In this document: piece by piece, positions 19,023 through 20,871 of the stretch | Layout: every line of letters starts with the position of its first letter | How positions within the stretch are numbered: position 1 is the first letter of the stretch | NCBI GenBank assembly: GCA_944381495.1 | Contig: CALWLJ010000001.1 | Coordinates: 170,042-234,041 of the forward strand | Source of the DNA: an uncultured Mediterraneibacter sp. | Lineage (GTDB): Bacteria; Bacillota; Clostridia; Lachnospirales; Lachnospiraceae | Direction: 5' to 3' | Length of the DNA: 64,000 bases | Translations under genes and position numbers: made by a program | The notes under the pieces: model-generated | Told to the model about the DNA's origin: nothing | The model's database searches: none | The model's input: the letters and a program-made list of their open reading frames with translations, nothing else

Positions 19023-19235
19023 TCAGCAGCCACATCCGTTATTTCCGAAACCGCCGCAGCAGCACAGAAGCAGGATGATCCACAGACAGCTGTCATTGCC
19101 GCAGCCGTTTCCGCCGAAAGTATTTCCGCCGCATCCGCCGCAGCAGCACAGAAGCAGAATGATCCACAGGCAGGAAGACATACTGTTTCCATTTTCACAT
19201 CCACATCCACAGTTTGTAGCAGTTAAATCACTCAT
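19023..19235 (-). CDS. Cysteine/glycine-rich mini-protein with an internal duplication
   Basis: 70 residues, 15 of them Cys. Ribosome site GGAGGATTTAAC before the ATG. The 14-residue segment SCLWIILLLCCCGG occurs twice, at 21-34 and 49-62; the matching DNA (19051-19089 and 19135-19173) is nearly identical at an 84-bp offset, so the duplication is recent or kept alike. Each copy is a short hydrophobic helix capped by Cys, between CGCGC-like ends. Proteins of this type are often labelled chorion-class high-cysteine proteins in Clostridia, an annotation by composition only. It could be membrane-associated, metal-binding or a cross-linked coat component; nothing in the sequence decides this. Confidence 0.7.
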   Translation of the reverse strand: MSDLTATNCGCGCENGNSMSSCLWIILLLCCCGGCGGNTFGGNGCGNDSCLWIILLLCCCGGFGNNGCGC

Positions 19236-19297: not shown

Positions 19298-19386
19298 TTT
19301 GGGGACGTAGTTAAATTGAATTTTGCTACGTCCCCGATTGAGTTTCAGGGTGTCCCGGATTGGATTTTGCCCTGTCCCCAAATGGA
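19298..19386 (-). repeat. Left array of 22-bp GGGAC repeats (inverted copy)
   Basis: Read on the minus strand this is three units: two 22-bp units each beginning GGGAC, then a terminal unit forming a hairpin GGGGACGTAG / CTACGTCCCC (19301-19310 with 19326-19335). It is the inverted counterpart of the array at 20353-20458 on the other side of the subtilase gene. It looks like REP-type sequence. Confidence 0.75.
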
Positions 19387-19433
19387 AACAATTGCTTGTT
19401 CGTAGAATATCTTAATTGAAAAAGGATAATTTT

Positions 19434-20351
19434 ATGAGATGGGTAAAGAAAGCGATTGGTTATTGGTGTGATGATATAATGGGTGAAAAATATTTAGGCA
19501 AAGGCATTGGCGTAGGTGTTCTGGATACGGGGATTGTCATGCATCCGGACCTGCGGGGAAGAATGCGTGATTTCAAAGATTTTACGCGTAACGGGCAGCG
19601 GACATGTTATGATGATAGCGGACACGGAACTCATGTGGCAGGAATACTGGCAGGAGACGGGAGGGCATCGCGGGAAATTTACTCTGGAATAGCACCTGAT
19701 GCGGAACTTTTTGTTGGAAAAGTGCTGGATCATTGTGGAAATGGAAATGTGGAGGATGTGCTAAAAGGCATACAATGGATGCTGTCGTTGAAAACGGAAA
19801 AAAACTTGAAAATTGTTAATATTTCAGTGGGGGCGCAGCCAGATCTTGAAGAAGAACAAAAGCAGAAATTTCTGGACGCTGTCGATGAAATGTGGGATGC
19901 TGGACTCGTTGTTATTGTTTCAGCAGGAAATTACGGACCATCCGAGGGAACTGTTGCGGTCCCGGGCAACAGCCGAAAAGTAATAACTGTAGGGGTGCCT
20001 GATTCTTTCCAACATAACGGGTATAGCGGGAAGTTTAGAAAGAAGCCTGATTACTCTGGCAGGGGGCCTACCCGTGAATGTATCATGAAACCGGACGTTT
20101 TTGCACCGGGTACTGGTATTGTCAGCTGTAATAGTCGATTTTCCGGAAAAGGAGAACCATTTTATGTGATGAAAAGTGGGACTTCAATGGCAACCCCAGT
20201 AGTATCGGGGGCAATAGCATGTCTTTTGTCAAAATGCCCTGATATGACAAATGTAGAGGTAAAACTCCGGTTACGCGAAACCTGTATAAAATATCCTGGA
20301 ACAGAGGCGGGATGGGGATTGCTGAATGTAGAAAAACTAATGAATGCTTAA
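19434..20351 (+). CDS. Intracellular subtilisin-like serine protease (S8)
   Basis: 305 residues from ATG 19434, with AAAGGA 8 nt upstream; a TTG at 19416 is in frame but lacks a site. The subtilase triad is complete: Asp31 (VLDTGI), His64 (DSGHGTHVAG), Ser251 (SGTSMATP), with oxyanion Asn166 (SAGNYG). There is no signal peptide and no long propeptide, and the size matches intracellular subtilisins, which degrade cytosolic proteins. The gene is visibly more A/T-rich in codon choice than ffh next door. It is enclosed by inverted arrays of 22-bp repeats on both sides, which suggests acquisition as a unit. No immunity or substrate gene adjoins it, so its target is unknown. Confidence 0.9.
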   Translation: MRWVKKAIGYWCDDIMGEKYLGKGIGVGVLDTGIVMHPDLRGRMRDFKDFTRNGQRTCYDDSGHGTHVAGILAGDGRASREIYSGIAPDAELFVGKVLDHCGNGNVEDVLKGIQWMLSLKTEKNLKIVNISVGAQPDLEEEQKQKFLDAVDEMWDAGLVVIVSAGNYGPSEGTVAVPGNSRKVITVGVPDSFQHNGYSGKFRKKPDYSGRGPTRECIMKPDVFAPGTGIVSCNSRFSGKGEPFYVMKSGTSMATPVVSGAIACLLSKCPDMTNVEVKLRLRETCIKYPGTEAGWGLLNVEKLMNA

Positions 20352-20352
20352 A

Positions 20353-20458
20353 AAGGGACAGGGCAAAATTCGATTTGGGACACAGTGAATCACGATTTGG
20401 GACATACTGAATTTCGATTTGGGACGTAGTGAAATTCGATTTTACTACGTCCCCAAAT
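20353..20458 (+). repeat. Right array of 22-bp GGGAC repeats
   Basis: Three tandem 22-bp units starting GGGACAGGGC (20355), GGGACACAGT (20377) and GGGACATACT (20399), then a terminal unit GGGACGTAGT (20421) ending in ACTACGTCCCC (20444-20454) to make a hairpin. Units share the ending CGATTT. It is the inverted match of 19298-19386 with one extra unit. It begins 3 nt after the subtilase stop and ends 18 nt before the ylxM promoter. Confidence 0.78.
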
Positions 20459-20475: not shown

Positions 20476-20504
20476 TTGACACCTCTTTGCCTTTCGTGTA
20501 TGAT
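20476..20504 (+). promoter_or_regulatory. Strong sigma-A promoter of ylxM-ffh
   Basis: Perfect TTGACA (20476-20481), 17-nt spacer, TATGAT (20499-20504). The start codon of ylxM is only 16 nt downstream, so the leader is about 10 nt. Confidence 0.85.
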
Positions 20505-20520
20505 AGCAAAGGTGACAACA

Positions 20521-20871
20521 ATGAATGAGATTTTAGAGCAGGCATTACTGTATGATTTCTACGGCGAACTTCTCACGGATCATCAGAAGGACGTCTACGA
20601 ACAGTTTATCCTGGATGATCTTTCTCTCAGCGAGATCGCGGAGATGAAGGGGATCAGCCGCCAGGGCGTGCACGATCTGGTGCGCCGCTGCCAGAAGACG
20701 CTGGAGGGATATGAGTCGAAGCTGCATCTGGTAGAGAAGTTCCTCTCAATAAAGGAGAAGGTGGGCAGGATCGATCAGATTCTTGAGGAGTGTGAAGCAC
20801 AGAAAGCTGAGCCGTCAGAGATCGTAAGGCGTGTCCGGGAGATTTCGGATACGATCATAGAGGAGTTGTAG
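20521..20871 (+). CDS. ylxM: YlxM-type SRP-associated helix-turn-helix protein
   Basis: 116 residues from ATG 20521, with AAAGGTGA just upstream; a longer frame from 20419 would overlap the promoter and repeat array. A sigma-70 region-4-like HTH is visible (DDLSLSEIAEMKGISRQGVHDLVRRCQKTLE). YlxM/p13 proteins are encoded next to ffh and are thought to affect SRP function or expression. The stop is one base before the ffh ATG, so the two are coupled. Confidence 0.92.
   Translation: MNEILEQALLYDFYGELLTDHQKDVYEQFILDDLSLSEIAEMKGISRQGVHDLVRRCQKTLEGYESKLHLVEKFLSIKEKVGRIDQILEECEAQKAEPSEIVRRVREISDTIIEEL

Follow-up and report, generated by a model that had tools for sequence, protein, structure and literature searches.

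The inverted arrays of 22-bp GGGAC units that lie on both flanks of a complete S8 protease gene (19302-19378 and 20355-20453 of the window, i.e. the whole 64,000-nucleotide stretch of DNA that was analysed) are very probably RAYT element ends of the GGGAC type, present as solo copies beside a native gene. On this reading, for which we infer mobility of the arrays, the bracket is incidental and does not serve to move the protease. The arrays are dispersed through the genome, are associated with a RAYT transposase within the genus, and have been gained or lost at the protease. An initial annotation had proposed either a small cassette with long terminal inverted repeats, or two REP insertions of the RAYT-mobilised kind that happen to bracket a gene. 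The second proposal has stood: the arrays belong to a dispersed family, and the RAYT genes of relatives carry arrays on both sides. The first has not, as relatives keep the protease in place while the arrays come and go, and what seemed a possible protease cassette has become an ordinary repeat insertion beside a native gene.

A 33-nt hairpin closes each array at its outer end (Table 1). The initial annotation had described the inverted arrays and their hairpins accurately, including the extra unit on the right: three units (starting at 20355, 20377 and 20399) versus two on the left. Complementarity between the two arms (19298-19381 and 20374-20457, 84 nt) is 74%. Upon folding as single-stranded DNA, none of 200 shuffles matched either array (z -4.6 and -3.9). 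Covariation within the hairpin is weak: at pairs 10-15 of 54 distinct hairpins, 247 of 324 cells are Watson-Crick, compared to a mean of 233 (sd 4, maximum 249) in 500 shuffles, and the outermost five pairs are invariant because they were fixed by the search pattern. The GTAG is paired within the stem GGGACGTAG/CTACGTCCC and thus does not form the unpaired tag at the foot of the palindrome that is characteristic of GTAG REPs proper. A search for intrinsic terminators gave no match at either array. The left and right array are 80% alike over 55 nt, which corresponds to the 42nd percentile of 276 array pairs within the own genome. Nothing therefore marks them as the ends of one element, and that idea was discarded as unsupported by their similarity rank.

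Table 1. Features of the protease locus (positions within the window).
Feature	Position	Strand	Basis or remark
Cys/Gly-rich mini-gene, 70 aa, conserved left neighbour	19023..19235	-	adjoins the protease in 49/53 genus loci
Left array, outer hairpin (GGGACGTAG...CTACGTCCC)	19302..19334	no strand	sequence pattern and folding
Left array, two 22-bp GGGAC units, inverted	19335..19378	-	one unit fewer than on the right
S8 subtilase gene, 305 aa, no partner gene	19434..20351	+	native to this place in the genus
Right array, three 22-bp GGGAC units	20355..20420	+	first unit 3 bp past the protease stop codon
Right array, outer hairpin	20421..20453	no strand	sequence pattern and folding
Promoter-like TTGACA-17-TATGAT ahead of ylxM	20476..20504	+	outside the array
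ylxM, conserved right neighbour, then ffh	20521..20871	+	gene order in relatives

That the enclosed gene is a complete S8 protease was corroborated by a full-length match to Peptidase_S8 (Pfam, E 2e-49), and the closest solved sequences are subtilisin-like proteases. The mini-gene on its left has no Pfam match, and on its right promoter-like words similar to those in Table 1 precede ylxM in relatives too. The A/T-rich codon use that had been noted is reflected in a GC3 of 0.38, versus 0.63 for ffh and 0.67 for ylxM. Low GC3 might be read as a sign of recent acquisition, but this was rejected considering that the gene occurs genus-wide and has a lower GC3 than ffh in 45 of the 48 genomes in which both could be measured; the value of 0.38, found in both the own and the sister protease, is near the low end of the 53 genus values. 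The source genome (~3.19 Mb in 39 contigs, 91% complete assembly) holds no second close copy of the protease, the sole other match being 36% alike (E 2.5e-4). Mediterraneibacter is frequent among the named relatives that have the closest proteases, and the nearest of them (L207) is Candidatus Mediterraneibacter stercoripullorum, with 84% protein identity.

The S8 protease was recovered in 53 of the 58 genus genomes and, at E 1e-30, in 85 of a wider set of 117. The five genus genomes without an S8 match include G046 and G048, which are listed as 94-95% complete. Around the gene the order is well conserved: ylxM or ffh adjoins it in 49 of the 53 genus stretches, and it is co-directional with these genes in 44, inverted in 5, while 4 lack ylxM and ffh in the stretch. 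Judged by the mini-gene, three of the last four have the normal orientation and one is inverted. Among 80 named loci, a sample that overlaps with the 53, the protease is co-directional with ylxM or ffh in 60, normal by the mini-gene in 6 and inverted in 3, and 11 have no recognised neighbour. The protease has thus long been at this place, which argues against a mobile cassette. Around 1.3 kb separates it from ylxM in G041 and G056. Inversion in place, beside conserved neighbours, was observed in six of the 53 genus loci (L130, L129, L125, L117, L076 and L066; genomes G008, G022, G028, G034, G049 and G051), where the contig of G022 stops inside the protease and that of G051 at the hairpin.

The arrays are far less constant. 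An array was scored when a spacer contained at least three of the words GGGACA, GGGACG, TGTCCC and CGTCCC; for G030, G038 and G043, which have no ylxM in the stretch, the 200 bases past the gene were scored instead. This rule, which misses decayed left arrays (G007, G047) and a short right remnant (G004), identifies left arrays at 4 of the 53 loci (G000, G029, G006 and G016) and right arrays at 11. In G016, the units on the left are of a divergent type and no matching hairpin accompanies them. Parsimony on a quick S8 tree (support below 80 in 17 of 50 inner branches) gave 9 changes for the right array and 2 for the left. None of the four genomes with a left array lacks a right one, but they represent only two lineages on the tree. 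The initial annotation had suggested looking for one empty site spanning the whole block; spacer alignments revealed clean empty sites on each side separately: G023 has no array between the words that enclose the left array in G000, and G054 lacks the array that is present on the right in G013 and G020. In addition, ancestral spacer sequence persists between the left array and the protease gene. A composite transposon or cargo cassette should be present or absent as a unit, with different cargo in different copies; here, the gene occurs without arrays and each array is separately absent. The protease thus stays at the same place in relatives while the arrays vary, an outcome that had been named beforehand as contradicting a cassette. 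The right spacer of G004, G033, G036 and G057 carries a different insert (words like GCGCCATTCGCAAA.CCGCACT) at the same place past the protease, in G033 even twice.

Searching the own genome for the repeat, as had been suggested, placed the same array at around 30 positions. The left array as a query gave 58 matches (both strands, partial matches included), and the hairpin pattern gave 29 sites, versus 0 for a reversed control pattern. At least one GGGAC unit accompanies the hairpin at 24 of these sites and the remaining 5 are bare hairpins; the number of consecutive units ranges from one to four, and in L026 and L035 units flank the hairpin on both sides. A rough ORF picker flagged 1 of the 29 sites as lying inside an ORF, and the family can therefore be considered mostly extragenic. 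Four close pairs of arrays face outward, with hairpin spacings of 194 (L029), 195 (L027), 216 (L028) and 217 bp (L031); in a fifth, L030, both arrays have the same direction. The cores of the four outward-facing pairs are short, with words like TGCACAA...TTGTGCA, and these pairs are candidate miniature elements. Wider outward-facing pairs that enclose genes are found twice, around the protease (1119 bp) and in L036 (1930 bp). The arrays of the latter (L036:2893-4855, contig C10) surround argJ-like and acetyltransferase-like genes in an arg cluster, these names coming from ORF reading and not from a family search, and the two ends are 96% alike, at the 99th percentile of array pairs. Other genes between such arrays, for which the initial annotation had proposed to look, include these two and, in relatives, the RAYT genes.

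A Y1 transposase search in 61 genomes yielded shorter IS200-like genes and many open frames of ~250-310 aa, and 16 loci were read. In 13 of these, all of them in relatives and together constituting all loci of a close type, arrays lie on both sides of a RAYT-type gene, the left one facing outward and the right one starting 6-7 bp past the stop codon; for L137 the script found two right units and no full hairpin. The close-type proteins are 255 or 256 aa long, or 272 in one case with an upstream start. The RAYT matches Pfam Y1_Tnp above cut-off and NCBIfam REP_Tyr_transpos with E 1.5e-19 and 70.4 bits, which is below the cut-off of 80, making it related to, and outside, the curated model. All 16 RAYTs, without exception, have H60, H62 and Y119, and we take Y119 to be the catalytic tyrosine. 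Searched with the RAYT, the PDB yielded a single match, at chance level (E 0.87). A second, more distant RAYT-like type was encountered at L133, L146 and L147 (G029:C108, G030:C53 and G007:C188), with no GGGAC arrays within 700 bp.

A RAYT match is present in 38 of the 58 genus genomes, 32 of the close type (E of 1e-57 or lower; partial in G024) and 6 of the distant type only. All 32 genomes with a close RAYT have at least 6 hairpins, versus 5 of the 26 without (Fisher 2e-11, kinship ignored); of these 26, 21 have at most 3 hairpins and five have 11-29 (G000, G005, G019, G021 and G054, with 11-17 in the last four). The observation that no RAYT is encoded in the window could be extended to the whole own assembly (91% complete), in which 0 candidates of the close type were found despite 29 hairpins. 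When the 5-kb RAYT locus of the sister was compared with this assembly, only the arrays matched (40 of 54 candidates scored). The presumed mover is therefore missing or located in unassembled DNA. At C33:15897-16122 the own genome does contain a Y1 transposase match, split in two and apparently broken. The own IS200-like transposases, i.e. this broken gene on C33 and one on C18 near a contig end, were considered as the mover and found unsupported, as a scripted scan of the stretches around them (L046 and L047) detected no cluster of arrays.

Outside the genus, the hairpin occurs in 7 genomes among 150 drawn from the family, and a RAYT match was obtained in 6 of 7 hairpin-bearing versus 14 of 142 hairpin-free genomes (p 1.8e-5). 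Of 12 RAYT loci from this wider family, six have clusters of GGGAC/GTCCC on both sides (L240, L245, L246, L247, L250 and L251), with a hairpin core that often differs (e.g. GGGACGGAGG or GGGACGTGTTC), with bare hairpins in L251 and with units that face the opposite way in L247. The other six showed no clusters by the GGGAC/GTCCC motif, and four of these (L241, L242, L244 and L248) are from genomes with the hairpin elsewhere. Taking one locus for each of the six outside genomes with both hairpin and RAYT, two-sided GGGAC clusters are found in 2 (L240, L250) and none in 4. Array and transposase may thus change together, a link that outside the genus is seen only in part.

The distribution of the arrays is consistent with the following scenario. 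In the RAYT element, an HUH/tyrosine transposase gene (IS200/IS605 superfamily) has inverted GGGAC arrays on either side, with their hairpins outermost; the two protease arrays would be separate, non-autonomous copies of the element's end structure. By analogy to what has been described for RAYTs and their kin (PMC8266576, PMC3116915, PMC3733652), ends that bear hairpins could be spread, as small non-autonomous units, by an HUH tyrosine transposase for which folded single strands are the substrate. In these gut bacteria the RAYT, still in this lineage or formerly in its ancestor, would recognise the single-stranded hairpin, and perhaps also the tandem GGGAC units, and copy or move single arrays into intergenic DNA. 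At the locus studied here, one such insertion would have occurred just past the protease stop codon and another in the spacer between mini-gene and protease.

Arrays that face outward around one gene also reproduce the layout of the RAYT element itself, and left arrays occur only where right arrays do. Both would fit a mobile cassette in which the arrays serve as terminal inverted repeats, the protease is cargo and the transposase acts in trans. Considering that the protease keeps its place within the genus whether arrays are present or not, that ancestral spacer is retained, that the own genome has no second close copy and that the two ends are not specially alike, such a cassette is extremely improbable. 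Only slightly better is the case for an invertible segment, in which recombination between the inverted arrays would flip the protease and switch its expression, and which we regard as very unlikely. Inverted repeats do flank the protease in the own genome, and the gene is inverted in place in six genus genomes. However, this amounts to only 2 changes on the quick S8 tree (where one of the two inverted groups joins the long branches G008 and G028, a grouping that the program warns may be false), so that the inversion looks old, unlike a switch. Moreover, a right array is found in two of the six inverted genomes and a recognised left array in none (the left side of G022 is out of view), and the complementarity of the own arrays is limited.

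The arrays could also be selected regulatory elements, acting on the protease or ylxM as structures that end transcripts or bind proteins. The position of the right array directly behind the stop codon, the strong hairpin folding and the recurrence of right arrays at 11 of 53 protease loci speak for this. Nevertheless, neither array resembles an intrinsic terminator, most of the 53 loci do without arrays, and several relatives share a different insert at the same place, which together make selection for such a role unlikely, if less so than a cassette or a switch. The arrays may still affect mRNA ends. The reading as solo RAYT ends beside a native gene is the one we prefer.

Mediterraneibacter, together with a few further genera of its family that are Lachnospiraceae-like, can now be named as a host of a RAYT-linked repeat family with tandem modules. 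Given that one genus contains genomes with transposase and repeats, with repeats alone, or with neither, it is suited to testing transposase-repeat co-evolution. A more far-reaching proposal, to which we attach a low probability, is that of a Lachnospiraceae-wide RAYT lineage in which the ends consist of countable tandem GGGAC modules and of a hairpin that changes together with the transposase, and in which chance pairing of solo ends can give rise to composites able to invert or to carry host genes. The argJ bracket would then be a recent case.

Three known systems offer the closest comparison. The REPtron combines a RAYT (TnpA-REP) with GTAG-tagged REP palindromes (PMC3733652, PMC8266576). 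The system described here shares the RAYT-type protein and repeats with GTAG that are dispersed, lie mostly outside genes and form hairpins, and differs in that the GTAG lies inside the paired stem instead of forming an unpaired tag, and in that the RAYT falls below the REP_Tyr_transpos cut-off of NCBIfam. REPINs are REP doublets that behave as miniature non-autonomous elements (PMC3116915). The outward-facing pairs of the own genome (L027, L028, L029 and L031) resemble such two-ended elements; unlike in REPINs, their ends consist of two or three units each, their hairpin spacings form two classes separated by ~22 bp (194/195 and 216/217), and the two ends of a pair rank no higher in similarity than other array pairs (7th to 42nd percentile). 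The TIRtron consists of a tyrosine transposase (TIRYT) gene with long flanking terminal inverted repeats, some of which contain the motif GGGGWSAS (PMC3733652). Shared features are a Y1/HUH transposase gene that lies between inverted repeats, a string that fits GGGGWSAS (GGGGACAG, where the left array ends towards the protease), and TIR copies that also form dispersed repeat families, in dimers or clusters (PMC3733652). Unlike in TIRtrons, the repeats are tandem 22-bp units with an outer hairpin and the hosts are Lachnospiraceae; the words Clostridi, Firmicutes and Lachnospir do not occur in the main text of PMC3733652. Among the literature matches listed, no title concerned this GGGAC repeat in these bacteria. 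Several hallmarks of RAYT-associated repeats are found here: two-sided inverted repeats around a Y1 HUH gene (13 of 16 loci, in relatives), HUH histidines with a catalytic-type tyrosine, and a dispersed, mostly extragenic repeat whose abundance is tied to the transposase, the own genome with its hairpins and no RAYT found being the exception. The tandem-unit layout is not met in the available text of the related descriptions (PMC3733652, PMC8266576, PMC3116915), and the repeat family as such belongs to the REPtron/TIRtron kind.
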